From the NCBI GenBank assembly GCA_028278645.1, contig JANQDZ010000096.1, positions 1-64,000 on the forward strand: DNA of 64,000 nucleotides, given 5' to 3'. The stretch comes from Longimicrobiales bacterium. Its GTDB lineage: Bacteria; Gemmatimonadota; Gemmatimonadetes; Longimicrobiales; Gaopeijiaceae. Below, piece after piece: positions 43,044 through 64,000 of the stretch. Each line of letters opens with the position of its first letter. Position 1 is the stretch's first letter. The translations under genes were made by a program, and so were the position numbers. The notes beneath the pieces are model-generated. The model saw nothing but the letters and a program-made list of their open reading frames with translations. It did not search any database and had not been told where the DNA came from.

Positions 43044-43653
43044 GGTGAAGGACGCCGTGGAGGAGCGGGTCCATCTACTCCGGTCCAGGCACCTTCCCTG
43101 GGCAGTCGGGGTGCTGACCGCCGTTCTTCTTACCACCGGGTGCGGAGCTGATCGTGACGCGAATCCGGACCCCGAGCACCCCCCAGTCCCTAGTGGCTCT
43201 GGGCAGGTGGTCGGGGAAACCCTCGAGGTTCCCCCGCCTCCGTTTTCCGTGGGGGTTTTCCCCTGTTCCAACTGCCACGGGATGATTCCCCCGAATCCCG
43301 TGCGGAGGGAACTCACTGGTTTCCATACCGAGATCGTTCTCCACCACGACGAAGACAACAGGTGGTGCCTCGATTGTCACGATACCGAGGATAGGGACCA
43401 ACTCCACCTTGCAAGCGGGGCCTTGGTTCCCTTCGAAGAGTCGTACCGTCTGTGCGGCCAGTGCCACGGCGAAAAGTACCGAGATTGGAGGGCCGGCGTG
43501 CACGGGCGGCGATCCGGGGACTGGAACGGACAGAAAACCTACCTCCTTTGCGCCCACTGCCACGACCCACACCAGCCCCGGTTCAAGGCCATGGAGCCAA
43601 TGCCCCCCCCCGTTCCCCCACATCAGACCGTTGGCAAGGGGGTGGCACGATGA
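43033..43653 (+). CDS. Tetraheme c-type cytochrome lipoprotein
   Basis: The 206-residue product starts at GTG within the previous gene. A basic N-terminus and helix end in a lipobox (VLLTTGCG). Four Cys-x-x-Cys-His motifs follow: CSNCH, CLDCH, CGQCH and CAHCH. Early His residues (FHTEIVLHH) may serve as distal ligands. It is coupled to the Fe-S subunit by an ATGA overlap, giving the order cytochrome / Fe-S / NrfD found in multiheme quinone oxidoreductases. It would exchange electrons with periplasmic carriers. Confidence 0.92.
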   Translation: MVAEVKDAVEERVHLLRSRHLPWAVGVLTAVLLTTGCGADRDANPDPEHPPVPSGSGQVVGETLEVPPPPFSVGVFPCSNCHGMIPPNPVRRELTGFHTEIVLHHDEDNRWCLDCHDTEDRDQLHLASGALVPFEESYRLCGQCHGEKYRDWRAGVHGRRSGDWNGQKTYLLCAHCHDPHQPRFKAMEPMPPPVPPHQTVGKGVAR

Positions 43654-44534
43654 CCGACCAAAAACCCATCCTGGAAAAGGAGTTCTCCCGGAAGAGGTTC
43701 ATATCGGTGGCGGCTGCCGCAGCCGCCGGATATCTCCTCACCGGATGCGGCCCAAAGCGCCTTTATGAAGTGCCCCCGGACCGTTTGCGGGAACTGCTGG
43801 ACGAGATGGAAAGGGACCTGGCGGCGAGACTCGGTACCGAGGTGGCAATGTCCGGCGCCGGCCCCATGCCCGGTGTCGAATTCGCCTACGCCCTGGATAT
43901 CTCCCGCTGCGTCGGATGTAGGCGCTGTGTCTACGGCTGCGTAGAGGAGAACAATCAGTCCAGAGATCCCCAGGTCCACTGGATTCGGGTCCTATCCATG
44001 GAGCTGGAGGGTGGTGTGGACTTCTCCGAATCGGATCCCTACTACGACCCCGAAGAGGTCCCGCAGGAGGGCCATTTCTATGTGCCCGTTCAGTGCCAGC
44101 AGTGCCGAAACGCCCCGTGCACCAAGGTTTGCCCGGTGGGAGCCACGTGGACCGAGCCCGACGGGATCGTGGTGATTGACTACGACTGGTGCATCGGATG
44201 CCGGTACTGCATGGCCGCCTGCCCCTACGGAGCCCGCCATTTCAACTGGCAGGAGCCAGCCCTATCCCAGGAGGAGTTGAATACGAACATGCACTACCTG
44301 GGCAACCGGCCCAGGCCAGCCGGAGTGGTGGAGAAGTGCACCTTCTGCATTCAAAGGACGAGGGAGGGCCGCTACCCAGCGTGCGTCGAGGTTTGCCCCG
44401 TGGGAGCAAGGAAATTTGGCAACCTCCTGGATCCGGAAAGCGAGATCCGGTACATCCTCGAACACAAGCGTATCCTGGTTTTGAAGGAGGAGCTGAACAC
44501 CCTCCCGAAGTTCTTCTACTTCTACGGGACTTGA
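43650..44534 (+). CDS. Periplasmic four-cluster [4Fe-4S] subunit (NrfC/DmsB type)
   Basis: The ATG at 43650 is chosen for the ATGA overlap and the signal; the product has 294 residues. The N-terminus (SRKRFISVAAAAAAGYLLTG, then Cys) is a Tat-like signal with Arg-Lys-Arg in place of the strict twin arginine, plus a possible lipobox. Cysteines for four clusters follow: CVGCRRCVYGC, CQQCRNAPCTKVCP, CIGCRYCMAACP, and CTFC with CVEVCP. It passes electrons between the NrfD-type quinone site and the tetraheme protein. Confidence 0.93.
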   Translation: MTDQKPILEKEFSRKRFISVAAAAAAGYLLTGCGPKRLYEVPPDRLRELLDEMERDLAARLGTEVAMSGAGPMPGVEFAYALDISRCVGCRRCVYGCVEENNQSRDPQVHWIRVLSMELEGGVDFSESDPYYDPEEVPQEGHFYVPVQCQQCRNAPCTKVCPVGATWTEPDGIVVIDYDWCIGCRYCMAACPYGARHFNWQEPALSQEELNTNMHYLGNRPRPAGVVEKCTFCIQRTREGRYPACVEVCPVGARKFGNLLDPESEIRYILEHKRILVLKEELNTLPKFFYFYGT

Positions 44535-44540
44535 GGGCAC

Positions 44541-45779
44541 ATGGATACGCTCCGGATGTTCTTCAAGTTCTATTCAGGCAGTCTTCGCCTGGTTTCGAAA
44601 GGGAATCGATATTACTGGGCCTGGATCACGCTCCTCCTGGTCCTGATAGTGTCGGGGAGCCTCGCTTACGTGGATCAGGTCACAGAAGGGCTCACCGTCA
44701 CTGCCATGCGGGACCAGGTGAGCTGGGGCCTTTATATCGGGAACTTCACATTCCTCGTAGGGGTGGCGGCTGCCGCCGTGGTCTTGGTGATCCCGGCCTA
44801 CATCTACGACTGGAAGCCCATCAGGGAAATTGTCATTTACGGCGAACTCCTGGCCGTAAGTGCGATCATCATGTGTTTGCTGTTCGTCCTCGTGGATCTG
44901 GGCCGTCCCGACCGTTTCTGGCACCTCCTTCCACCGGCCGGCCACCTGAACTTCCCCTCTTCCCTGCTCGCATGGGACGTTCTGGTACTGAACATCTACT
45001 TTGTCATCAATTTTGTAGTGGTGACACACATCCTATACCGTGCATTCCACGGCAGGGAGTACAACCGAAAGCTGGTCGCGCCGCTGGTCCTTCTCTCGAT
45101 CCCGATGGCCGTCGGGATCCATACGGTGACAGCGTTCCTTTTTAACGGCCTAGCCGCGAGGCCCTATTGGAACGCTTCGATCCTGGCGCCCCAGTTCCTG
45201 GCCTCCGCTTTCTGCTCCGGTCCAGCGATTCTGCTGATGGTACTCCAGATCCTTCGGCGTTTCACGCGGTTCGAGATCCAGGATGAAGCCATCTGGAAGA
45301 TCGCCGAGCTCATGGCCTATGCCATGTTCCTCAACATCTTCCTTCACGGGGCGGAGGTCTTCAAGGAGTTTTATTCCGACACGGAGCACCTGCTCTACAC
45401 CCGGTACTGGTTCCTGGGTCTGGGGGAAGAAAGGACCCTCGTGCCTTTCGCCTGGACCGCGGTCGGCCTGAATCTGGTGGCCTTCGGGCTCCTGGTGGTC
45501 CCAAAGACCAGGAAAAACTGGATCACCTTGAACATCGGGTGCCTGGCCACCTACTTCGGGGTGTACATCGAGAAGGGAATGGGGCTGATCATTCCGGGCT
45601 TGACGCCCGATGCATTGGGCGAGATCTACCGGTACTTATTCACCAGCACGGAATTCCGCGTGGCTGCAGGGGTTTTTTCCATCGGGTTCCTGGTGTTCAC
45701 CCTGATGTTGAAGGTGGCCGTTCCTATCACCCTGGGTGAGTTCCAGTACGGATCGAGTCGATCTCCCATACCCGAATAA
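44541..45779 (+). CDS. NrfD/PsrC family membrane quinone-binding subunit
   Basis: The 412-residue protein has about ten hydrophobic helices and the NrfD-like features WGLYIGNFTFLVGVAAAAVVLV and LVDLGRPDRFWHLL in the first half. It binds quinone without heme or metal and couples to the Fe-S subunit. Together the three proteins would form a (mena)quinol:cytochrome c oxidoreductase similar to the NrfCD, PsrBC or ACIII core. Direction of electron flow cannot be told from sequence. It is the last gene of the operon that starts at the sigma-54 promoter. Confidence 0.93.
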   Translation: MDTLRMFFKFYSGSLRLVSKGNRYYWAWITLLLVLIVSGSLAYVDQVTEGLTVTAMRDQVSWGLYIGNFTFLVGVAAAAVVLVIPAYIYDWKPIREIVIYGELLAVSAIIMCLLFVLVDLGRPDRFWHLLPPAGHLNFPSSLLAWDVLVLNIYFVINFVVVTHILYRAFHGREYNRKLVAPLVLLSIPMAVGIHTVTAFLFNGLAARPYWNASILAPQFLASAFCSGPAILLMVLQILRRFTRFEIQDEAIWKIAELMAYAMFLNIFLHGAEVFKEFYSDTEHLLYTRYWFLGLGEERTLVPFAWTAVGLNLVAFGLLVVPKTRKNWITLNIGCLATYFGVYIEKGMGLIIPGLTPDALGEIYRYLFTSTEFRVAAGVFSIGFLVFTLMLKVAVPITLGEFQYGSSRSPIPE

Positions 45780-46838: not shown

Positions 46839-46890
46839 CCCGAAGAGGCAAATAGACGTATACCTTTACCCGTTCAGCGGTAGGAGAGTG

Positions 46891-47985
46891 ATGATGAGAC
46901 GGAGGCTTCCCTTACTCGTTGCTGCGGTGTTTTTGGTGCCGCTGGTGACGGGGTGCGAGGGACCCGTGGGCCCGGAAGGCCCCGCTGGCGCCCAAGGGGC
47001 TCAGGGCCCGGCAGGGCCCCAAGGTCCCGTCGGACCGATTGGACCGGCTGGGCAAGACGCCACCCAGACCTGCACCCAGTGCCACACCAATAACGTCGGG
47101 CTATTCGCGAAGCAGGTTCAGTACGAGCAATCCACACACCGGCTGGGCGGTAACTTCGAGAGGGCAACGACCAGTTGTGCGCCGTGCCACACCCACCAGG
47201 GATTCCTGGAGAGGATCGCCACCGGCGGGACCAGCACGGCCGCTACCATCCTGGACCCGGCGCCCATCAATTGCCGGACCTGTCACCAGATCCACACGAC
47301 CTACACCAACGCCGACTACGCGTTGACGGTCAGTGGGCCCAACGCCATGGTCTTCAACCCCACCCAGGGCCCGAACGACCTCGGTGAGATCGGGAATCTC
47401 TGCAGCCAATGCCATCAGGGGCGTTCGCTGAATCCAGTTCCCGTACCCGGTGGCGCTGACGTGACCGTTACCTCTTCCCGCTACGGCTACCATCATGGTC
47501 CACAGGGCCAGGTCGTCGCTGGTGTTGGGGGATTCGACCTGGGTGGTGGTGCCACCGAAGGTCCCATGGCCCACGGGAATCCGGGAATCAACCAGGGCAC
47601 CTGCGGCACCTGCCACATGGGTGAGGCTTTCGGTGAGCAAGCCGGCGGGCACACCTGGAAGATGACCTACGAATATCGTGGCCGGGATAATGACAACGTC
47701 GCCGGGTGCGAACCGTGTCACTCGAGCATCGATGACTTCGACTACAATGACGTCCAGACCACGGTCGCTGCCCTCATGGAAGAGCTCAGGGTGGAGTTGG
47801 TCCGGATCGGCATCAAGCGAGATGGGGACAACTGGTACGCCAACGCTGGTACCTGGCCGGCCGATGTGGCTGCAGCCCAGGTGAACTACCAGATGGTGGG
47901 TGAAGACCGGAGCCTCGGCGTCCATAACCCCGGCTATGTGATCCCGCTGCTTCAGGGGTCCGTTGCCAAGATGAAGACGTACTGA
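46891..47985 (+). CDS. Hexaheme lipoprotein cytochrome with collagen-like stalk
   Basis: AGGAG precedes tandem ATG codons at 46891 and 46894; either fits. A lipoprotein signal ends in LVTGCEG. Eleven consecutive Gly-X-Y triplets follow (GPVGPEGPAGAQG and on, nt 46960-47058), a collagen-like repeat expected to form a trimeric rod. The globular part carries six heme motifs: CTQCH, CAPCH, CRTCH, CSQCH, CGTCH and CEPCH. The C-terminus has GVHNPGYVIPLL, also seen in the nine-heme protein at 53858. It would be a lipid-anchored, rod-raised electron carrier in the periplasm or on the surface. Confidence 0.92.
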   Translation: MMRRRLPLLVAAVFLVPLVTGCEGPVGPEGPAGAQGAQGPAGPQGPVGPIGPAGQDATQTCTQCHTNNVGLFAKQVQYEQSTHRLGGNFERATTSCAPCHTHQGFLERIATGGTSTAATILDPAPINCRTCHQIHTTYTNADYALTVSGPNAMVFNPTQGPNDLGEIGNLCSQCHQGRSLNPVPVPGGADVTVTSSRYGYHHGPQGQVVAGVGGFDLGGGATEGPMAHGNPGINQGTCGTCHMGEAFGEQAGGHTWKMTYEYRGRDNDNVAGCEPCHSSIDDFDYNDVQTTVAALMEELRVELVRIGIKRDGDNWYANAGTWPADVAAAQVNYQMVGEDRSLGVHNPGYVIPLLQGSVAKMKTY

Positions 47986-52942: not shown

Positions 52943-53344
52943 CTAGCCGGCCTTCGTGTGGCACCACAGGCAGGTCTCGTCGGCCCTTCCCTCATGGCTC
53001 TCCGGCGCATCCGGCACTGGAGGCATGACCCCAGGCGCATGGCACATCAGGCAGGCCTCTTTCCCTTCCAGGTCGTGGCTGGTCTTGGATGCCCCGGTGG
53101 TCTGCATGGGGGAGTCGGCGGCATGACACCACTGACAGGTCTCGTTCGCCCTCCCTGCATGGGTTTCCGGCGGCACATCCGGGACCGGGGGCATGATCTC
53201 GGGAGCGTGACACATCAGGCAGGCCTCTTTCCCCTCGAGATCATGCGTGGTGACCGGGGGCTTCTCCTGAGCTCCCAGTGACCCAGCTGCAAAGGTCAAG
53301 ACGCAGAAAAACCCAATCAGGCTAAGAATACTACGATTCATCAT
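52943..53344 (-). CDS. Tetraheme cytochrome built from an internal duplication
   Basis: The 133-residue product has a signal peptide (FCVLTFAAGSLGAQE) and two near-identical units at residues 34-77 and 90-132. Each reads HDLEGKEACLMCHAP, PPVPD and ETCxWCH, so each binds two hemes (CLMCH and CQWCH or CLWCH). The repeat is so similar that the duplication looks recent or homogenised. It is probably a soluble periplasmic electron shuttle. A sigma-54 promoter faces it from 53454-53470. Confidence 0.93.
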   Translation of the reverse strand: MMNRSILSLIGFFCVLTFAAGSLGAQEKPPVTTHDLEGKEACLMCHAPEIMPPVPDVPPETHAGRANETCQWCHAADSPMQTTGASKTSHDLEGKEACLMCHAPGVMPPVPDAPESHEGRADETCLWCHTKAG

Positions 53345-53571: not shown

Positions 53572-53857
53572 AGGACTTCAACTCGACGGGAGGGAACGAA
53601 CAACGGATTTGTCGGGGCACACCCCTCGTTCCTCTTCGCGCGGCCCAGCCCCCCCAAGGTCGGTCGGATACCTTGCGGAAGATGGTGCTCCGACTGAATT
53701 GTTTCCTTAGATATTTACGCTGATTGGCAAAAAAGGGTAGGAGGAGCCTGATTTTGGGCAACAGAAACCTCGGATGTCACGAATCGGAATGTCCCCGTGG
53801 AGCCCACCCGTGGTCGCCTCAGATCCGATTGAGTGCGACGAGATGGGGAGCCTGCTT

Positions 53858-55354
53858 ATGAAGATGGGAAGTCAAATCGGAGTGGCTGGGATTATCCTGT
53901 CCATGTTGTCGTTGGTAGTCCTGGCGGGCTGTGTGGACGGGGACACCGTCTACACGGACCAACCCGAATGGGAGGAGTCGCCACCGGGCGGTTTGGGGTT
54001 CCTGGGCTACGAGCCGTTCAAAAAGGGCGAAACCCTCTGTGGGCAATGCCACGTTGATTACCAGGCTCGGTGGATCGGAACCGATCATGCCGACGCCTGG
54101 GAAGGCCTCCAGTCCAGCAGTCATGCCGCTTCCTATTGTGAAGGGTGCCACACGGTCAGTCACCTGGGTAATGAAGTGACCGACCCGAACGTTGCGTGGG
54201 CCGCCACACAAGACAACCGCTTCCGGGACGTCCAGTGCGAGAGTTGCCACGGACCCGGGATCGAGCACGTCTCGGCCCCCGCTGCCACACAGCCCTTGGC
54301 TTCCTTCGAAGCGGGTATCAACGCGTCGAACGGCTGTGGCGAGTGCCATAACGGGACCCATCATCCGTTCGTGGAACAGTGGGCACAGTCGGCCCATGGC
54401 TCCGGTCCCCACGTTGCCTACGCGGGCACCCGAAGCTACTGCGCCGGGTGTCACGAAGGGCAGGCGGCTCTCGAGCAGACGTTCGGAGTTGACACGGATT
54501 ATCTGGAGAAGGGGGATGGTGAGCTGCGCACCATCACGTGCATTGTCTGTCATGATCCCCATGGCTCTCCGTTCGACGGGCAACTCCGGGCTTCGATTCA
54601 GGTTCCGGATCGCACGAACCTCTGCATGCGATGCCACACACGTAGGGGTGAGCCCTGGTCCTCCCACGGACCTCACGCGGCCCAGGGACTCCTCATCCTG
54701 AGCGAGGATGTCGGTTATATCCCTGAAGGTTTCAGCCGGGCGATCGCCGACGTACCCAACCCCCACGGGCCTCGAAACAACAACGAACTTTGCGCCCGCT
54801 GCCATGTGTCGGACTTCACAGTGACCGACGAGACCGGAGGATTCCTCCTCCATAGCGTGGGACATACGTTCGAAGCCATCAGTTGTTTGGATGACGAAGG
54901 CCTACCGGTGTACGACGGGAATTGCGCCGTCGATGACCGGACCTTCGCCACCTGCGCCGGATCCGGCTGCCACGGGTCCGAAAGCATGGCCAGGAACGCG
55001 TACGTCCAGAACCGGGCACGGCTCAACGTGCTCCTGGACGAGCTTTGGGAAGACTCCAACCTGAACCACATTATGGAGGCGACGGACAAAGGCCTCCTCC
55101 CGAAGGTCATCGCCAACGGCCACGGGGCAGATTTGGACCCAAGCAACTCCACCATGAACCCGGCCAAAGGCGCTCTATGGAACGGAATGCTCGCCTGGAC
55201 CGGGGACCGGACCCATTGGTCCGACGGTGAAGTCGGAGGGGTTCATTTCTCCTCACATCCCAACAGCGGGAACGGCGTCCATAACCCTCACCTCCTCGAG
55301 GCCCTCCTGCTGGCCTCAATCGGGGAAGTCAGAGCAGCTTATGGACTCCAATGA
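53858..55354 (+). CDS. Nine-heme c-type cytochrome lipoprotein
   Basis: The ATG at 53858 has GGGGAG at proper distance and begins a lipoprotein signal (LSLVVLAGCVDG); the frame is open from 53774 without a signal. The 498-residue product has eight standard motifs (CGQCH, CEGCH, CESCH, CGECH, CAGCH, CIVCH, CMRCH, CARCH) and one Cys-x4-Cys-His (CAGSGCH). The beginning (DYQARWIGTDHADAWEGL) resembles cytochrome c554-like folds. The C-terminus has GVHNPHLLEALLLASI. It is first in a barrel/twelve-heme operon; a place on the outer membrane is inferred. Confidence 0.93.
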   Translation: MKMGSQIGVAGIILSMLSLVVLAGCVDGDTVYTDQPEWEESPPGGLGFLGYEPFKKGETLCGQCHVDYQARWIGTDHADAWEGLQSSSHAASYCEGCHTVSHLGNEVTDPNVAWAATQDNRFRDVQCESCHGPGIEHVSAPAATQPLASFEAGINASNGCGECHNGTHHPFVEQWAQSAHGSGPHVAYAGTRSYCAGCHEGQAALEQTFGVDTDYLEKGDGELRTITCIVCHDPHGSPFDGQLRASIQVPDRTNLCMRCHTRRGEPWSSHGPHAAQGLLILSEDVGYIPEGFSRAIADVPNPHGPRNNNELCARCHVSDFTVTDETGGFLLHSVGHTFEAISCLDDEGLPVYDGNCAVDDRTFATCAGSGCHGSESMARNAYVQNRARLNVLLDELWEDSNLNHIMEATDKGLLPKVIANGHGADLDPSNSTMNPAKGALWNGMLAWTGDRTHWSDGEVGGVHFSSHPNSGNGVHNPHLLEALLLASIGEVRAAYGLQ

Positions 55355-55394: not shown

Positions 55395-56855
55395 ATGAGT
55401 TATCGGACGCCCCTTGTCGCCTTGTCCCTGTGTATTTTGCTGCTCCCGGGGCTGGCCACGGCTCAGGGGATCAACGGACGAGCAAGAACCTATCTCAGCC
55501 ATCTCCAAATCCGTGATATGGTGCTGGACAGTGTTCCTGAGGGCACGGTTTCGGGAGAGGGGGTCCAACGCACTCTCCCGGACGGCACTCCCCTCACCTG
55601 CGGGGAAGAATACTGCCAGTATTATCGCTCCGGCCCCGAACTCGGGGTGATCCCTTTCCTCGTGGACCTGGAGTTGAACGCCTGGACCGGAATAACGGGG
55701 CTCCGGGCTTACACCCACTTACGGGCCAGGGATCACCTAGGTGATTTTCGGGTGATTTGGCCGAAAATGAACGAACCTTTCGAGGCCCTCACCCTATACG
55801 TCGAGTATGGGAGGTCCTTCTACCGGGTCAAGGCCGGTCGGCAGTGGCAGACCACCGGCCTGGGCATGTACAACTACGATGGTGGATCGGTCCGCATGCG
55901 GCTGCCTCACAACCTCGATGTCGAAGTCTATGGGGGACTGAGCCTGGTCAGAGGGCTGAACGAGTCTCACTACACCAACCTCATCTCTGACGTGGAATCC
56001 CTCTTCCCCAGGGAGGATGCTTGGCTCGGAGGAATTCACGTGCGGTTTCGGCCGTTCCCCCAGGTCGCCGGTTCGTTCACCTACCAGCGGGAGGAGGCCG
56101 CCGGCTCCGACGGCCTCTATTCCGAGCGGATCGCAGCCACCACCAGAATTCTGGCGGGACCAATTACTCTCGACGGAGAGTTGAAGTTCGACCTGGCAAC
56201 CCGACAAACCAACCTGGCGAAACTGGCCGCCTCTTTCCCTCTCGACAAAGGATTCAGCGCGAGTGGCGAGGTCCGTACCTATACGCCGTTCTTCGAGCTC
56301 TGGACGATTTGGGGAGCCTTCTCGCCGGTGGGATTCAACGAGGTGAGGGGACGGCTCGACTGGATTGCACCTTCCGGGAAACTCTCGGCATACACCTATG
56401 GCAGCCATAGGAGTTATGAAGAAACCTCCACCCAGATCCCCGGTTCTCTTTCCATCTCCGACGAGAGTTGGAGGTGGGCCTTCGGTAGTCGGTATTCGAT
56501 CCTGACGGACCTCACACTGAGCGCTGAGTACCGCTATGACGATGGGTACGGCGCCAGCCGCCACGGGGGGGACCTATCCGTCCAGAGGTTCTTCGGCCGG
56601 AGCTCCTACCTGGCGCTACGCGGCACTGCTTTCCAGACGTTCTCCGAGTTCCGCGTCGGATCGGGGGGAGTTATCGGTGGCGGCCTACAAGGCGCGTTCC
56701 CGCTGGCCTCGGCGAAGGTCCACGGAAGCGTAATGTACTACCAACATGATCAGATCGACCGGCCCAGCCTCCTCGATCTCAACCAGCTGCGCATGAACCT
56801 CTCGTTGGAGATACCCATCGGCGGTGACCCCGGCCTGAGAGGAGGAGGAAACTGA
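55395..56855 (+). CDS. Outer-membrane beta-barrel protein between two multiheme cytochromes
   Basis: The ATG at 55395 has a strong ribosome site (GGAGGTATGAC) and a signal peptide (LCILLLPGLATAQG); upstream codons belong to the 3' end of the previous gene. The 486-residue product is alternating amphipathic strands, about 18-22 in number, with acidic and aromatic loops. It shows no plug domain and no TonB box. Its place between a surface-type lipoprotein cytochrome and a periplasmic twelve-heme protein matches porin-cytochrome conduits such as MtrCAB/OmbB-OmaB-OmcB, though no sequence family is assigned. Confidence 0.75.
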   Translation: MSYRTPLVALSLCILLLPGLATAQGINGRARTYLSHLQIRDMVLDSVPEGTVSGEGVQRTLPDGTPLTCGEEYCQYYRSGPELGVIPFLVDLELNAWTGITGLRAYTHLRARDHLGDFRVIWPKMNEPFEALTLYVEYGRSFYRVKAGRQWQTTGLGMYNYDGGSVRMRLPHNLDVEVYGGLSLVRGLNESHYTNLISDVESLFPREDAWLGGIHVRFRPFPQVAGSFTYQREEAAGSDGLYSERIAATTRILAGPITLDGELKFDLATRQTNLAKLAASFPLDKGFSASGEVRTYTPFFELWTIWGAFSPVGFNEVRGRLDWIAPSGKLSAYTYGSHRSYEETSTQIPGSLSISDESWRWAFGSRYSILTDLTLSAEYRYDDGYGASRHGGDLSVQRFFGRSSYLALRGTAFQTFSEFRVGSGGVIGGGLQGAFPLASAKVHGSVMYYQHDQIDRPSLLDLNQLRMNLSLEIPIGGDPGLRGGGN

Positions 56856-57811
56856 TGAACCGTGCATCCAGATGGTCCCTGGCGGGTCTGGCTTTGGCGG
56901 GGTTTGCGGTTCCGTCTCTCCTGGCGGGTCAGACGTTTCCTCACAACACGCACGAGGCGTTCTTCTCCGAATGCACTGCTTGTCACTCAGGCGTCATGGC
57001 CGATCCCGAAACCGGTCCCTATCCCGAGTTCTCCACCTGTGCGGCGTGCCACGACGGACAGTCCGGGCCGGCCATTGAATGGCAGGATCCCGGGTCCCGG
57101 GCATCGAGTCTGGCATTTCCTCATGCTCCTCACGACTTCGGATGTAACACGTGCCACGCTCCTGGAGGTGACGAGAACCCGGGATCGTTCAGCTTCCCTG
57201 AACCGGAAACCTGTTTAAGCTGTCACGCTCCTCAAACCGAGCACCAGGCGGCTGAATGCAGTTTCTGCCATGCGCCGGTCACCGATTTTCGCCTTACCCG
57301 GGACGGGACTCAGGATCCCTTCCATGGCGCTGCTTTCCTCAACAACCACGGACCTGCGGCTGCATCCGGGCAGCCGGATTGTGCTTCGTGCCACGCCGAG
57401 AACACCTGCACCCAATGTCACGACGGAATGGCCTCATCCGAGTTCCATCCGACGAATTTTGTTCTCTCTCATTCGACAGAAGCCTTCGGTCGGGTGAGCG
57501 ATTGTACCTCCTGCCACACCTCTGAAGCGTTCTGCAGGGAGTGTCACCTCAACCTCGGAATGGAGGGTGGTGGAGGGTTCGTTGCGCCGTTCCACGACAA
57601 CCAGGCGATCTGGATTTTGAGCCACCCCCAAGCGGCCCGGCAGGACCTGGAAAGCTGCGTGACATGCCATCAACAGAACGACTGTATGCGCTGCCACTCC
57701 GCGTCGGCCGGGATGCGGGTCAGCCCCCACGGACCGGGTTTCCGGGGATCGAGCATCTCAGACCGGAATCAGGCCATGTGCAAGTTTTGTCACACGGGTG
57801 GAGGAGGATAA
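56855..57811 (+). CDS. Twelve-heme periplasmic c-type cytochrome
   Basis: The start overlaps the barrel stop (TGATG) with GAGGAGGAGG upstream. The 318-residue product has a signal peptide ending near LLAGQTFP and twelve heme motifs: CTACH, CAACH, CNTCH, CLSCH, CSFCH, CASCH, CTQCH, CTSCH, CRECH, CVTCH, CMRCH, CKFCH. One heme per 26 residues gives a tightly packed wire. It is probably the periplasmic element that fits into the barrel, by analogy with MtrA, although MtrA has ten hemes and no sequence identity is claimed. Confidence 0.95.
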   Translation: MNRASRWSLAGLALAGFAVPSLLAGQTFPHNTHEAFFSECTACHSGVMADPETGPYPEFSTCAACHDGQSGPAIEWQDPGSRASSLAFPHAPHDFGCNTCHAPGGDENPGSFSFPEPETCLSCHAPQTEHQAAECSFCHAPVTDFRLTRDGTQDPFHGAAFLNNHGPAAASGQPDCASCHAENTCTQCHDGMASSEFHPTNFVLSHSTEAFGRVSDCTSCHTSEAFCRECHLNLGMEGGGGFVAPFHDNQAIWILSHPQAARQDLESCVTCHQQNDCMRCHSASAGMRVSPHGPGFRGSSISDRNQAMCKFCHTGGGG

Positions 57812-57907: not shown

Positions 57908-60049
57908 CTAACCTCCTCCGCCGGGCAGCGGCGGGATCTCATGGCACAGCGTGCATTCCATGCCTCCGCTGTGTTCCTCGTTACCCTGGTGGCATACCAG
58001 ACATACAGACCTGCTCCACTTCGTGATTCCGGCTTGGTCTGGAGCAGTATGGCAGGCGGTACAGGCAGTTATATGGGCCAACTCCGCCATATGCTTGTCC
58101 TTCGGGTCTTCCGTGTGGCAAAGCCGGCAATCGGTGTTGACTTGGTGGTGGAGCGTATGACATGTGGCGCAGACATCGGGGTTCGTCCCCGCTCCTGGTT
58201 CGGTATGGCAGGTAGTGCAATCAAATCCCATGCTCTCATGTGGTTCGTGAGGGAACGTGCCAACCTCGGTGAGGAGCGGATCAGCCGGGACCTCAGAGTG
58301 GCAGAATTCACAGGTGGCCGAAGGGGTGTGATGGAGTTGATGGCAGGGTGCGCACGTTTCCTGATCCACAGCCATGGACGGGCTTTGATGGCAGGCGTCG
58401 CATCCCAAATCCATAGAGAGGTGGGGATCGTGAAGGAAGTTGGAGGAGGCGTAGGCCAGCGTGTCCGCTTGGGGAGGGGTGTGGCAGAGCACACATGCTT
58501 CCTGAGATTCAGAGATATGATGACAACCGTCGCAGGACGCTGCTGAGGAAAGGGTGAGGCCACCGTGGTCATCCATGGGCGTGTGGCACGTTTGACAATC
58601 CAACCCAGCATTTACGGTGTGGCGGCGATGGGGGAAGGGTCGACCTTCCCAGACGACGATACCGCCCCCATCCACGCCGAAATGGCAAGACTCGCACGAA
58701 CCGGCTTCCAGCGGTTGCCCCAGGTTCACCGATGCCAGCCTGGGGTCCCTACCGTCGGCCTCAGCCGCCTCCCGTGCCATCTCTACGGCCGCCCTCAGTA
58801 ATTCGTCGGCGTACGGGACGTTGTGGGCCCCCCGGCCTACACGAACCAGCTCCACGTTCTCTTCGGCGGCCTGGATCAAAGAATCGGCAGGTGGGGCGGG
58901 GCGGGCACCAACAGCACGCCGGACCCGCCCAACGACGTTCGAAGCGGCGTTGAGTCGGGCTTCCAATTCTTGCTGCCATCCGGGTAGGATGCCGGCGAAC
59001 TCGACTCCGTGGCAGGAAAGGCAGGTCGCCTCCCCAGCCATGGACACCCCTTCGTGCCCAGGCAGGTCACCGGGAAGAGAGTGGCAGCTTTCGCAGGTCA
59101 CCCGAGCCAGAAACATTCGACTCGGAGTCTCATCGACACTGTGACCCCCACTGCCGGCAACCAGAGCACGCTGGGCTTCATGGGCGCCGGTGTGGCAGCC
59201 GGCGCAATCCAACTCCAGGGTTTCTTCCAGGGCCACCACCTTGTGCTGGATCTCGGTGTGACACTGCTGGCACTCGATGTTGTGTTCAGCGATATGGACC
59301 TCGTGGAGAAGGGTGGGGTTGTCGAAGGCTTCAATTCTCTCGGGGAGGTTATGGCAGGTCCAACAACGCTGCTCCTCCGCAATCCCATCTCCGACGGCAA
59401 CGTCCGAGTGACACTTGGAACATGAAACCATGTCCCGCACGATCTGATCGTGGTCGATGGGCACCCCCTCGTATTCCACGTTGGGAGGTGAGGGGTGGCA
59501 GCCCAAGCAGCCACTCAGAGGTTGTCCGACCGGTCGGTCTTTGAAATGACAGAGGTTGCAGGTCGTGGACGTGACGGTCAGATGTTCGCCCTGGACGATC
59601 TGTGAGTGGCAGGACGTGCAGCGCAGGTCCTTCCCCCTCCTCAGTTCACCCAGGTGTTGGGCGTGATCGAACCGGACGCCTTGGAAAGAGACAATCCCCA
59701 AACGCTGTTCGATGTGGCACCCTTCCCTGGTACAGGCCGCGTCCTCGATCTCGGCCCAGGGCTTCTCCTCATAGGTCCTGGTAACGTATTTCACCACTTG
59801 ATTCGCGGCCTGCACCTTCCCCATCGCCTCGGCTTTGATCCCCGGCGCATAATGGCATTGGATGCACGGCACCATGTTGTGGGAGGAGGTCAGCCAGGAC
59901 TGATAGTACGGCTCCATGTTGTGGCAGTTGTTGCAGAAGCCCGGTTGGGCCGAGTACTCCAGGAACCCGACGGTCCCCGCAACCCCCAACACGGCAAACA
60001 CAACGGCCGCCTGTACGGAGATTATCAGGAGCTTTCTTCGCTTTTTCAC
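57908..60049 (-). CDS. NapC/NrfH-type membrane cytochrome extended to 25 hemes
   Basis: The 713-residue product starts with a basic N-terminus and one uncleaved helix (LLIISVQAAVVFAVLGVAGT), then CNNCHNM, the NapC/NrfH signature in which Met or His ligates the first heme, then CIQCH. In all it has 24 Cys-x-x-Cys-His motifs and one Cys-x4-Cys-His (CTREGCH). Two heme-rich blocks are separated by a helical linker near residues 355-430. It would take electrons from quinol or cytochrome b and carry them far into the periplasm. It is last in a four-gene operon, overlapping the nine-heme gene by four bases. Confidence 0.95.
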   Translation of the reverse strand: MKKRRKLLIISVQAAVVFAVLGVAGTVGFLEYSAQPGFCNNCHNMEPYYQSWLTSSHNMVPCIQCHYAPGIKAEAMGKVQAANQVVKYVTRTYEEKPWAEIEDAACTREGCHIEQRLGIVSFQGVRFDHAQHLGELRRGKDLRCTSCHSQIVQGEHLTVTSTTCNLCHFKDRPVGQPLSGCLGCHPSPPNVEYEGVPIDHDQIVRDMVSCSKCHSDVAVGDGIAEEQRCWTCHNLPERIEAFDNPTLLHEVHIAEHNIECQQCHTEIQHKVVALEETLELDCAGCHTGAHEAQRALVAGSGGHSVDETPSRMFLARVTCESCHSLPGDLPGHEGVSMAGEATCLSCHGVEFAGILPGWQQELEARLNAASNVVGRVRRAVGARPAPPADSLIQAAEENVELVRVGRGAHNVPYADELLRAAVEMAREAAEADGRDPRLASVNLGQPLEAGSCESCHFGVDGGGIVVWEGRPFPHRRHTVNAGLDCQTCHTPMDDHGGLTLSSAASCDGCHHISESQEACVLCHTPPQADTLAYASSNFLHDPHLSMDLGCDACHQSPSMAVDQETCAPCHQLHHTPSATCEFCHSEVPADPLLTEVGTFPHEPHESMGFDCTTCHTEPGAGTNPDVCATCHTLHHQVNTDCRLCHTEDPKDKHMAELAHITACTACHTAPDQAGITKWSRSVCLVCHQGNEEHSGGMECTLCHEIPPLPGGGG

Positions 60050-61305
60050 GACTCAGTCCCCTCTCCCTGCCCCACAGAAGAGTCCTCTACGGGTGCGACC
60101 AGTTTACGGCGTTTCCGCAGGGCGAGGAGGATTCCGAAAACGAGAAGCACCCAGGCCGGGATGGCCAAGAGCTGCCGCTCCCATCGGTGCTCCTCCACCA
60201 CGTCGGCCCTCTCGCCAATCTCCGTGGAGAGGGAAGAAATCCTCCGTACCAGGTCATCCAACGCTTCGGGTTCCAGGGCGTGGGCCTGCACCAAGAGCTC
60301 CCGAAGATGGGTCTCGACCGTCAGGAATCTGACCTCCTCGTCATCGATGGTTTCTCCCGCCTCGGCTAGGATATGGAGCGCATCTCTAGCCCTTGACCCG
60401 GCTGCCTGAGCCCGGAGCACCTGTTCCTGCAGTTCCAGCCCGGCGACCCCGGCGGAAGATCCTTCCTCGTGGCACGAGACGCACACGGACCCAATCTCCG
60501 AGAGGGGTGGCATGGTTGTCTCGTGGTTAGCGTGGCAAGCCGTACAAGGAATCCCCCCGCTCGAGCTCGGGCCCGCCTGGCCGTGCGGGCCGCGGAAGTA
60601 GGTCTCTCGAACGAGCTGGTGGCACTTACCACAGACGTTCGGGATCTCGAGGACGCCCGGAGGGAGTGCGGAGTGGGATCCATGGCACGACGCACAATTG
60701 GCGGCCCGTTCATTGTGCCCCGCCATGAGGGCGACACCGTGGGCGCTCTCTTGCCACTGCTCAAGTTGATCTGTTGGGAGGCCCTCCGGCACACGGGTGG
60801 GATCCGAATGGCAGGAAGAGCAGGTCTCCGGGATCCTTGCAGGATGAACCGGACTCCGTGGATCGGTTCTGGGCAGTATGGCGTGGGACCCGTGACAATC
60901 GCCGCAGGACGGGGCAAGGAGATTCCTGTCTTCCAGCAGTGCCCGGCCGTGCCGACTGAACAGAAATTCTTCCTCCGTCACCGGTTCCAGAGCGAACTGC
61001 CTCATCTGCGGAAGATCCCCATGACACGAAAGACAGAGATCGACCGCCTCCGTCTTTGACATGGATCCGACGAATCCCTCTGTATGGGCGGCATCGGCCT
61101 CGAACTGGGAAGGGTCGCCCCCATGACAGTCGGTACAAAGGATCCCCCGCCCCGAGTGGACCCCCTGCAGGAACCCGGTCCGCATGTCCGTGTGGCACAT
61201 GATGCAGGAGTATTCCTCTTGGAGGAACCCGGCCATCGTCTCCTGCGAAAGGGCCGGGGTGACCCAGGAAAGGACTGCGATGGAGCTCACCAAAACGGAG
61301 CGCAT
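60046..61305 (-). CDS. Nine-heme cytochrome with C-terminal membrane anchor
   Basis: The 419-residue product has a signal peptide (VLSWVTPALSQE), nine heme motifs (CIMCH, CTDCH, CLSCH, CGDCH, CSSCH, CASCH, CGKCH, CTACH, CVSCH), a long coiled helical segment (ELQEQVLRAQAAGSRARDAL and on) and a final helix (LLAIPAWVLLVFGILLALRK) followed by a basic tail. The topology is periplasmic with a C-terminal anchor. It takes the place of cytochrome c1 in a bc-type complex. The stop is two bases from the cytochrome b stop-start junction. Confidence 0.94.
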   Translation of the reverse strand: MRSVLVSSIAVLSWVTPALSQETMAGFLQEEYSCIMCHTDMRTGFLQGVHSGRGILCTDCHGGDPSQFEADAAHTEGFVGSMSKTEAVDLCLSCHGDLPQMRQFALEPVTEEEFLFSRHGRALLEDRNLLAPSCGDCHGSHAILPRTDPRSPVHPARIPETCSSCHSDPTRVPEGLPTDQLEQWQESAHGVALMAGHNERAANCASCHGSHSALPPGVLEIPNVCGKCHQLVRETYFRGPHGQAGPSSSGGIPCTACHANHETTMPPLSEIGSVCVSCHEEGSSAGVAGLELQEQVLRAQAAGSRARDALHILAEAGETIDDEEVRFLTVETHLRELLVQAHALEPEALDDLVRRISSLSTEIGERADVVEEHRWERQLLAIPAWVLLVFGILLALRKRRKLVAPVEDSSVGQGEGTES

Positions 61306-61307
61306 GG

Positions 61308-62450
61308 TCAGTTACCCCCTACCGAAGGAGGAACGCCTGGACCGAGCCCCGCTATCAGAGACACCATCAAGAGGAGGAGGAAAAGTGCAAACAGGCCCAT
61401 GGCTACGGGTCTCCGGGTGAAAGCTGACTCTCCTGTGCGAGCCACTAGAGGTAGAGCGGCCAAGGCAATCAGCAGGAGCGGGAGGCCGTAAAGGCCGATT
61501 CCTAGCGGCAACCGGGCCGCGCCCACCAGGATCAACACAGGAAAGCCGAGCGCAGGGAGTTCTCCAGGGACCGTGAAAGGATCCGCCGGGGGCCCGAAAG
61601 GCCTGGGAAAGAACGCAGCCAGCGTGATCAGGACAGCGAGGGTGATCAAAGCCACCACCAGCTGCCGAAGCATGTGGTGAGGAAAAAACGGTTCCCCCTC
61701 CCCGCTGACGTCTCCTTCCAAAGCAACCCCATGCTTCCGAATGAGCTGAAAGTGAAGGGAAAGGAGGAGGAGAAGGACCCACGGAAGAAGGATCACGTGA
61801 GTAGCATAGAAACGACTCAGCGTAGCTCCACTCACGAACTCATCCACACTGAACAGCCGGGAGAGGAGCCCGCCAACCACCGGATACTTCGCCAACTCGT
61901 CAAGCCCGTACGTGGTGGTCCAGTAAGCCCACTGATCCCAGGGCAGGAGATAACCTGAGGTGACGAAGGCCAGAAGCGTGATGAGGAGCATGATCCCCAT
62001 GAGCCAGGTCGTTTCCCTGGGAGCACGGTAGGTTCCCGTCAGAACCACGCGGAACAGGTGAACCAGAGCAGTGAGGACAACGAGACTAGCTGCCCAGAAA
62101 TGAACGTGACGGACCAGCCAGCCGAAGGTGATCTCCGACTCCAGGTACTGGAGGCTGGGGTATGCCTCGACCGTGGATGGTCTGTAATAGAAGCTCAACA
62201 TCACCCCGGTGAGGACCAGGATCATGCAGAGGAAGTACGTAGCGCCTCCGAACGCGTGCTTCCAGCCGACAGAGGCCGGGAGCCTCCTCCTCATGGAGGC
62301 TCTCCATGCTTCTCCCAGCGGAAGGCGGTCTTCGATGGGTCCGTAGAGGAGGCCAAAAAGGCGGGGGATTGACAGGATCCGGGCATCGGTGGCCTCTTCG
62401 AGCCACTTCAGGATCCTGCTCCGCCCTTTGTTCTGATCGGATTCGGTCAC
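61308..62450 (-). CDS. Cytochrome b of bc type lacking the PEWY motif
   Basis: The 380-residue protein has the four heme-ligand histidines of a bc cytochrome b: His117 and His131 on one helix, His218 and His233 on the next, and the conserved PWDQWAYW loop after helix C. About eight helices are present, including the subunit-IV-like part (PPADPFTVPGELPALGFPVL). In normal complexes that part carries PEWY with the Qo glutamate; here it reads LPALGF, so the glutamate and tyrosine are absent. Quinone oxidation at a standard bifurcating site is unlikely. It overlaps the Rieske-like gene by four bases. Confidence 0.93.
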   Translation of the reverse strand: MTESDQNKGRSRILKWLEEATDARILSIPRLFGLLYGPIEDRLPLGEAWRASMRRRLPASVGWKHAFGGATYFLCMILVLTGVMLSFYYRPSTVEAYPSLQYLESEITFGWLVRHVHFWAASLVVLTALVHLFRVVLTGTYRAPRETTWLMGIMLLITLLAFVTSGYLLPWDQWAYWTTTYGLDELAKYPVVGGLLSRLFSVDEFVSGATLSRFYATHVILLPWVLLLLLSLHFQLIRKHGVALEGDVSGEGEPFFPHHMLRQLVVALITLAVLITLAAFFPRPFGPPADPFTVPGELPALGFPVLILVGAARLPLGIGLYGLPLLLIALAALPLVARTGESAFTRRPVAMGLFALFLLLLMVSLIAGLGPGVPPSVGGN

Positions 62451-62881
62451 GTTCCACTCCCGATGCTGATGACACCGTCGCGAATCAAGACTGGATACCG
62501 ATGAAGATCTCTGTTGTCCAACCCCGCCACCACAAAGCCATAGGGGTTATAGATCTGATAGCTACAGGGGGAGAAAACCCGGTAGAGCTCATCGTCCCAC
62601 TTCAGCTCGCAGCCGTCCGCGGGAGACCGTCCCTCAACGGCCGTCACCTCCCCGGACGCCATCCTGATGACCAGGATCCATCGGTCCCCCCAACGCTCCA
62701 GGCGATCCGAGTTGACGGGGAAGTCATCCAACTCTGCTATCCGGAGTGAGGCTTCCACGTCTGGGATTACCAAGGGTTCCTGTGGCAGCGCATACAGGAG
62801 GAAGACGAAGAGGCCGACAGCCACGATAAAGACCCCGAGGCCGGCGAGACACCAATCCCAAAAATCCCATTGTTTCACCAC
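62447..62881 (-). CDS. Rieske-fold membrane protein lacking all four cluster ligands
   Basis: The 144-residue product has one helix (residues 10-32) and a small beta domain that aligns with the Rieske fold. The first loop, normally CxHxGC, reads SPADGC (86-91), and the second, normally CPCH, reads SPCS (104-107). Both cluster Cys and both His are replaced by Ser or Ala, while the two cysteines that form the loop-bridging disulfide (91 and 106) remain. The downstream RDLHRYPVLIRDGVISIG strands are typical. It is the first gene of the operon with cytochrome b. It cannot bind [2Fe-2S] in the normal way. Confidence 0.85.
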   Translation of the reverse strand: MVKQWDFWDWCLAGLGVFIVAVGLFVFLLYALPQEPLVIPDVEASLRIAELDDFPVNSDRLERWGDRWILVIRMASGEVTAVEGRSPADGCELKWDDELYRVFSPCSYQIYNPYGFVVAGLDNRDLHRYPVLIRDGVISIGSGT

Positions 62882-63034: not shown

Positions 63035-63143
63035 CTTCGGTAAATGCTGGTTTATTTGATTTTCGGGCCGATTCGGAGAGCGGAGTGCATGCGGATTACC
63101 CTCCGGGATCGGCGCCCCTGGCTCGGTTGTGGGAAGGATGAAG

Positions 63144-64000
63144 ATGCGGATTCTGGTGGGAGCCACACTGATGTTCCTGGGACTTTCCGTCCCGGGTGGG
63201 CCAATCTGGGCACAGGCTGATGATCAGATGTGCCTCATGTGCCACGGTGATCCGGCTATGCTCCAGGGCACAGGCAGAGAGGCTCAGCTTCTGGTCACTC
63301 CAGAGGATCTGGCCGGATCGGTCCATGGAGCGGCCGGAGTAGGGTGCACCCTATGCCATCAGGATATCCCGTTCCCCCACAGCGCTGTGGACGTCCCAGC
63401 GGTGGACTGCGGCTCCTGTCATTCCACTCAAAACCGACTGCATGACCGGTCCCTTCATGGCCAGGCCGCCGCCAGAGGGGATTCCCTGGCCCCGTCCTGT
63501 GTGGACTGTCACGGCGGGCACTCTATTCTCTCCAGTCGAAATCCAGCCTCATCCACATCGACGATGAACGTCCCTCTCCTTTGCGGTGAATGTCACCGAG
63601 AGGGAAGCCCGGTCTCGAGAACCCACGAGATCTCCCAGGACCGAATCCTGGAAAACTACTCCATGTCGATTCATGGAGACGGCCTGTTCCGGGCGGGTTT
63701 GACCGTCACCGCGGTCTGCACGTCATGCCACACCTCCCACAACATCCTTCCTCACACAGACCCGCGTTCAAGCATTCACCACGAGAGGGTGGCGGCCACC
63801 TGCACCGCATGCCATGCACGGATCGAGGAAGTGCATGTCCAGGTGATCGAGGGGCGACTCTGGGAGGAGGAGCCCCACAAGATCCCGGCCTGTGTGGACT
63901 GCCACCAGCCCCACCAACAGCGCCGTGTCTTCTATGATCCGGGGGCGGCGAACCAGGACTGTCTTGCCTGCCACGGGGACCCGACTCTTGTCGGGTACAG
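63144..64000 (+). CDS. Multiheme c-type cytochrome, at least nine hemes, cut by window end
   Basis: GGAAGG lies six bases before the ATG at 63144; an ATG at 63138 is also possible. The frame is open to the window end (285 residues). A signal peptide (hydrophobic core ending GGPIWAQADD) is followed by nine heme motifs so far: CLMCH, CTLCH, CGSCH, CVDCH, CGECH, CTSCH, CTACH, CVDCH, CLACH. The pattern of one motif per 30 residues with GHSILSSRN and SIHGDGLFRAG blocks resembles the nine-heme protein at 60046. It is divergent from the Rieske-like operon and under a sigma-54 promoter. Confidence 0.93.
   Translation, partial: MRILVGATLMFLGLSVPGGPIWAQADDQMCLMCHGDPAMLQGTGREAQLLVTPEDLAGSVHGAAGVGCTLCHQDIPFPHSAVDVPAVDCGSCHSTQNRLHDRSLHGQAAARGDSLAPSCVDCHGGHSILSSRNPASSTSTMNVPLLCGECHREGSPVSRTHEISQDRILENYSMSIHGDGLFRAGLTVTAVCTSCHTSHNILPHTDPRSSIHHERVAATCTACHARIEEVHVQVIEGRLWEEEPHKIPACVDCHQPHQQRRVFYDPGAANQDCLACHGDPTLVGY

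Follow-up and report, generated by a model that had tools for sequence, protein, structure and literature searches.

Electron bifurcation in the Q-cycle ranks among the most conserved respiratory reactions, and its working parts in a cytochrome bc complex are the PEWY loop and the Rieske cluster. What can such a complex do once it has lost both? This question is raised by an operon on contig JANQDZ010000096.1 (assembly GCA_028278645.1) of a Longimicrobiales bacterium from the phylum Gemmatimonadota, located at 57908-62881 within a stretch of 64,000 nucleotides (positions 1 to 64,000 of the forward strand), the whole of which was analysed and is referred to here as the window. The first-pass annotation of the window had read these genes as a bc-like operon with a Rieske protein lacking its cluster ligands and a cytochrome b lacking PEWY, in which a nine-heme and a 25-heme protein replace cytochrome c1, and had suggested a non-bifurcating quinone:multiheme oxidoreductase. 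The answer favoured here is that the operon probably encodes a simple wire by which electrons pass between the quinones of the membrane and the cell exterior. Its four genes are:

62447..62881, minus strand: Rieske-fold protein, 144 amino acids
61308..62450, minus strand: cytochrome b, 380 amino acids, b6 plus subunit-IV-like, about 8 transmembrane (TM) helices
60046..61305, minus strand: nine-heme c-type cytochrome, 419 amino acids, with an N-terminal signal and a C-terminal TM helix
57908..60049, minus strand: 25-heme c-type cytochrome, 713 amino acids, with a NapC/NrfH-like N-terminal TM anchor

The genes were read as stop-to-stop frames; long antisense open reading frames at high GC (guanine plus cytosine) content made simple gene calling miss genes. 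They are separated by two 4-bp (base pair) overlaps and one 2-bp gap, i.e. the operon is as tight and in frame as had been claimed, and their order—Rieske-fold protein, cytochrome b, nine-heme protein, 22/25-heme protein—is identical across the loci complete enough to show all genes. The window operon encodes 9 + 25 = 34 c-hemes, the number across the clade described below being about 31–34.

Strong matches were found in 18 further genomes of the 298 genomes of the phylum searched, with one more match (G131) incomplete at a contig end; they span six family groups, the window's own counted. A scan of 84,980 species gave, with cytochrome b alignment, 32 loci of the same kind, all of them from metagenome-assembled genomes of Gemmatimonadota—a range defined by two cytochrome b peptide patterns—and six more distant loci of a different kind from Chloroflexota and Planctomycetota. 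The two collections overlap, and the merged non-redundant set, designated here as the clade, contains 35 distinct proteins of the Rieske-like type, and the PEWY slot is readable in 34 cytochromes b; the set includes a near relative of the window, L098, that is 78–81% identical. Many of the same genomes also possess a sister operon, ordered nine-heme protein, Rieske protein, cytochrome b and often less than 10 kb away, the motifs of which are intact: CTHLxC, C(A/P)CH and, wherever readable, KPEWY or RPEWY. This canonical sister is close to the clusterless operon in L037-L039, L044, L045, L051, L073, L074, L078, L080, L081, L090, L094 and L101.

Rieske-fold subunit and cytochrome b

The product of 62447-62881 aligns to the solved Rieske protein 8hn2_A (E 1e-6), the CTHLGC of which corresponds to SPADGC and the PCHG to PCSY. 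Its AlphaFold2 model, based on an alignment of 32 homologues, has a mean predicted local distance difference test score (pLDDT) of 91.6, and the top Foldseek match of the model is the Rieske domain of Chlorobaculum, again 8hn2_A (TM-score 0.84 on the target, root-mean-square deviation 1.5); further matches are the anammox protein kuste4569 and NirD-type proteins (4aiv). According to the model, the protein is thus a Rieske fold, as the annotation had proposed from the motifs. The two loops that would hold the cluster are as follows:

62609..62626, minus strand: first ligand loop, S86-P-A-D89-G-C91; the canonical sister has CTHLxC here, and Asp89 does not vary within the clade
62561..62572, minus strand: second ligand loop, S104-P-C106-S107; the canonical sister has C[PA]CH here, and S104-P-C106 does not vary within the clade

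A ligand cysteine is kept in 0 of the 35 distinct clade proteins, which have neither CxHxGC nor CPCH, and both loop cysteines (C91 and C106 in the window) are present in all 35, as is the Asp preceding the GC pair. The position of the first Cys is taken by Ser, Ala or Gly; that of the last His is variable, with His in a single protein, L097. No clade member restores the ligands, the near relative L098 included, which excludes a local mutation or a sequencing error. Judged from these residues, the protein is a membrane-anchored Rieske-fold subunit unable to bind a Rieske cluster as known Rieske proteins do.

The export signal has changed as well, a point that the annotation had not raised. The twin-arginine translocation (Tat) pathway exports folded proteins with their cofactors already in place; where no cluster is inserted, loss of the Tat signal is therefore expected. 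A Tat motif ahead of the TM helix was observed in 30 of the 34 canonical Rieske proteins of the set, the remaining four having either Arg-Lys (three) or no TM segment at all (one). The window protein has one N-terminal TM helix and no twin-arginine signal, and no convincing Tat signal was found in the clusterless clade, where the pattern matches in 2 of the 35 proteins only, in neither case Tat-like: far upstream of the TM helix in L053, and as RRDFG in L088. The TM helix is, moreover, clearly more hydrophobic in the clusterless clade than in the canonical proteins. It should be pointed out that two other Rieske/cytochrome b loci exist in the same genome, on another contig, and their Rieske proteins bear the ligands; the organism is thus able to make Rieske clusters.

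Concerning the cytochrome b, it matches cytochrome b6 (E 1e-51; the best solved match) and subunit IV, and belongs with Pfam family PF00033 (E 4e-44), not PF01292, the match of the latter lying in the neighbouring CbcL-like gene. The heme-b histidines H117, H131, H218 and H233—two pairs—are invariant in all clade members. The slot of the PEWY motif reads differently:

61542..61553, minus strand: PEWY slot, A300-L-G-F303 (mostly (V/L)-S-(T/S)-W in other members)

Neither PEWY nor a PxWY-type motif is found in any of the 34 readable slots, so that the loss noticed in the window holds for the clade; the Trp of the slot is nevertheless retained in 32 of the 34, the PALG-type slot being that of the window and L098. 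It may be added as a separate observation that Chloroflexota relatives (L102-L105) have APWY for PEWY with their Rieske ligands intact.

The positions conserved both in the sister and in other bc complexes were also checked column by column in the PEWY-less clade. Those replaced only there are the Phe two before GYLLPW, a Val of the cd1 region and the Gly before the ATL motif, the last being an invariant Asp203 in the clade; in the ef loop at the PEWY slot WYF has become WVV by replacement of its Tyr and Phe, and a Thr near the C-terminus has been replaced, too. The core and heme-ligand columns are unaltered. The Phe before GYLLPW, the cd1 Val and the Tyr and Phe after the slot Trp are assumed here, in bc1 numbering, to belong to the Qo site. 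The lost columns would thus lie mostly on the quinol-oxidation side, which supports a specific loss of Qo chemistry and not a general drift.

Descent, selection and the multiheme partners

The PEWY-less sequences form one branch of the cytochrome b tree, with a support of 100 in the Shimodaira-Hasegawa-like approximate likelihood ratio test (SH-aLRT), and the clusterless proteins likewise form one branch of the Rieske tree (SH-aLRT 99), for the calculation of which the ligand motifs had been masked. The correlated loss proposed by the annotation stands in so far as both changes are fixed together in every readable member; given one branch per tree, however, it is most simply explained by one loss that was then inherited, not by a series of independent losses, and what gives it weight as evidence is that it has long been retained under selection, not that it arose repeatedly. 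Pairwise ratios of nonsynonymous to synonymous substitution rates (dN/dS) are 0.05–0.29 in both subunits for close pairs, as approximate values with some dS near saturation. They indicate purifying selection on the Rieske-like protein as well as on the cytochrome b and, together with the conservation across the six families of the sample, bear out the claim of selection and not decay.

The heme counts of the annotation proved correct: the nine-heme protein has 9 CxxCH motifs, and the large protein has 24, to which a single CX4CH, CTREGCH, is added. This CX4CH, overlooked by plain CxxCH counting, is shared by all listed homologues of that protein—as CLRSGCH, CTREGCH or CTRSGCH—and is probably a real heme site; the counts of 25 hemes and 34 c-hemes therefore hold. 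In most homologues the large protein has 21+1 heme motifs, 24+1 being seen only in the window and L098. Its anchor matches PF03264 (E 3e-9) and TIGR03153 (E 3e-13, a match below the TIGR03153 cut-off), and the first heme site, CxxCHxMxPYY, is found in all listed homologues; the protein thus has the N-terminal TM anchor and the NapC/NirT-type heme domain with CxxCHxM of the NapC/NrfH group.

No monoheme cytochrome c1 or f accompanies the operon, the nine-heme protein being in its place, as in the PEWY sister. The proposed substitution of c1 by the nine-heme and 25-heme proteins is hence right as to the presence of both, but the idea that the nine-heme protein arrived with the loss of the ligands and PEWY had to be rejected, because the canonical sister has the same partner. 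By this comparison, the nine-heme protein predates that loss or is independent of it, and the partner that marks the clade is the CxxCHxM-anchored 22/25-heme protein. In two loci from genomes with the canonical sister only (L055:9702-11519 and L065:3653-5611), a 17–18-heme protein with a distant NrfH-like anchor is situated beside a barrel; it is possibly a counterpart of the 25-heme protein.

Weighing the readings of the complex

Based on the above results, it appears rather probable that the operon encodes a bc-derived, non-bifurcating quinone:multiheme-cytochrome oxidoreductase, the reading of the annotation being supported to this extent; the non-bifurcation itself, the direction, the quinone site and the stoichiometry are what we infer. 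Quinone would be handled at the one remaining site, most likely that on the cytoplasmic side (Qn), and electrons would follow a one-way path from hemes bH/bL through the nine-heme subunit and the 25-heme periplasmic wire to an outer-membrane conduit. The Rieske-fold subunit would then have a structural role, as an immobile cap occupying what was once the Qo/docking surface and keeping the nine-heme subunit close to heme bL. The direction of electron flow is not readable from the sequence: the step would be electrogenic if electrons from outside served to reduce quinone on the cytoplasmic side, and with quinol oxidised on that side proton-motive force would be spent on pushing electrons onto low-potential acceptors. 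Two observations weigh against such a complex, namely that much of the cd region on the positive side of the membrane (WDQW.YW, ATL.R) is still invariant in the clade, and that a Glu-less APWY accompanies intact Rieske ligands in other bc complexes of the set, so that the loss of the Glu alone is no proof of lost Qo chemistry.

Bifurcation might also have been kept, with a c-heme in the role of the Rieske cluster; quinol would then still be oxidised at a remodelled Qo site, which would pass one electron directly to the nearest heme of the nine-heme protein and the other to heme bL, and the Rieske fold would serve only as a scaffold. The retention of both b hemes, of much of the cd loops and of the PEWY Trp (32/34) would suit this arrangement, as would a nine-heme partner that already served a bifurcating-type sister complex, but the PEWY Glu and Tyr, the Phe before GYLLPW and the cd1 Val have all been replaced, and no mobile cluster is left to keep both electrons off the same path; this alternative is considered unlikely. 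Quite improbable, too, is that the 25-heme protein handles quinol at its NapC/NrfH-like anchor, with the cytochrome b and the Rieske-like protein providing either another entry point for electrons or a platform for assembly. The N-terminus of the large protein with its invariant CxxCHxMxPYY site is of the right type, and quinol is oxidised by NrfH/CymA-type proteins according to PMC6295460; yet a cytochrome b with all heme ligands kept and dN/dS of about 0.1–0.2 is not only a scaffold.

A different cofactor, bound by the Rieske-fold protein with the help of the conserved Asp89 and Ser104 and of groups nearby, would explain the invariance of Asp89 and Ser104-Pro-Cys106, but fits poorly with a variable last His position, with Ser, Ala or Gly at the first Cys position and with the lost Tat signal, which is typical of cofactor loading in the cytoplasm; its likelihood is very low. 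As for a local mutation, a sequencing error or a decaying gene set, nothing was found in its support except downstream heme genes that are interrupted or unrecognised in some long-read assemblies (L040/L079, L053/L082 and L071). The change is common to 35 distinct homologues from independent assemblies, the fold is predicted with high confidence and selection is purifying (dN/dS 0.05–0.29), by which decay or error is ruled out, practically no probability being left to it.

Genomic setting and comparison with known systems

The operon is flanked by the following genes:

63129..64000, plus strand: start of a divergent CbcL-like protein, 940 amino acids up to C13:65951, with 19 c-hemes and a b561/FdnI-type six-TM domain
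56855..57811, plus strand: MtrA-like 12-heme cytochrome, convergent with the operon
55395..56855, plus strand: large outer-membrane beta-barrel (AlphaFold2 pLDDT 77, many long strands)
53774..55354, plus strand: 8-heme c554-like cytochrome, syntenic in many loci

The same neighbours—8-heme protein, barrel, MtrA-like protein with 10–18 hemes and CbcL-like multiheme/b561 protein, the last occurring in a split version in some loci—are seen in the window and in many other loci, and a homologue of the barrel adjoins the MtrA-like gene in related loci. The synteny with the barrel, MtrA-like and CbcL-like genes is pointing to extracellular electron transfer. The barrel was not assigned as MtrB specifically, since its model, a beta-barrel of medium confidence, matched many outer-membrane barrels in Foldseek, with the Mtr complex chain 6r2q_B at rank 35 only, and the fold matches did not single out Mtr.

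Some other features of the region should be mentioned. A tetraheme cytochrome of 133 amino acids with an internal repeat is encoded at 52943-53344 and has homologues in L042, L044 and L045. Fer4 and NrfD genes (43452-45779) adjoin a six-heme cytochrome gene (46888-47985), a possible further quinone-linked module of the window. Just downstream, beyond the window (L057:4674-10229, i.e. C13:66674-72229), a sulfur-transport/rhodanese gene precedes genes for NrfD, a four-cluster ferredoxin and a molybdopterin oxidoreductase, a set resembling polysulfide/thiosulfate reductases. A search of the window against Rfam gave zero matches.

On balance, the odds appear to favour a bc lineage, Gemmatimonadota-wide, that abandoned the Q-cycle for a cofactor-free structural Rieske subunit and a wire that leads by one path from quinone through multihemes into a conduit of the outer membrane. 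Having lost both working parts of bifurcation while keeping its b hemes under selection, the lineage represents a natural experiment on the bc scaffold, and the bifurcating-type sister—adjacent in the same genomes and with the same nine-heme partner—offers a direct comparison, the two operons forming a ready-made control pair for experimental work. The lineage also hints at another class of quinone oxidoreductase of the inner membrane that would serve extracellular electron transfer, a process hardly studied in this phylum.

A Rieske fold without an iron-sulfur cluster is known from NirD, the small subunit of NAD(P)H nitrite reductase. That protein, however, is outside the quinone enzymes and has no membrane anchor, whereas the clade protein is of the bc type with both loop cysteines. 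A literature search, in the coverage of which most subscription journals are not included, revealed neither a published clusterless Rieske subunit in a bc complex nor a described complex of such a make-up, in agreement with the annotation; if true, this would be, to our knowledge, the first case of a bc-type complex in which a Rieske subunit free of its cluster is conserved.

Rieske, cytochrome b and multiheme c subunits are encoded together in the bc cluster GSU2930-2937 of Geobacter, the protein of which is annotated as a Rieske Fe-S protein with no cluster loss mentioned in the available passages (PMC2825233), and in the anammox clusters Kuste4569-4574 and Kustd1480-1485, the Rieske proteins of which, unlike those of the clade, bind a measured [2Fe-2S] cluster (PMC12954380). 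A non-bifurcating transfer from quinone to multihemes via b hemes, beside a porin-cytochrome system, has been proposed for CbcL/MtrH/MtoC in PMC6295460. These have, however, a b cytochrome of the HydC/FdnI type fused to c-hemes and unrelated to the bc fold; the operon cytochrome b has no such fused domain, and the window contains a separate CbcL-like gene next to the bc-derived operon. With bc1, b6f and the canonical sister, the complex shares a homologous cytochrome b, all heme-b ligands and a Rieske fold with a membrane anchor, and with the sister operon also the nine-heme subunit. It differs from all three in lacking the cluster ligands, PEWY and the Tat signal and in having the extra 22/25-heme subunit, and from bc1 and b6f, in addition, in the absence of cytochrome c1 or f.

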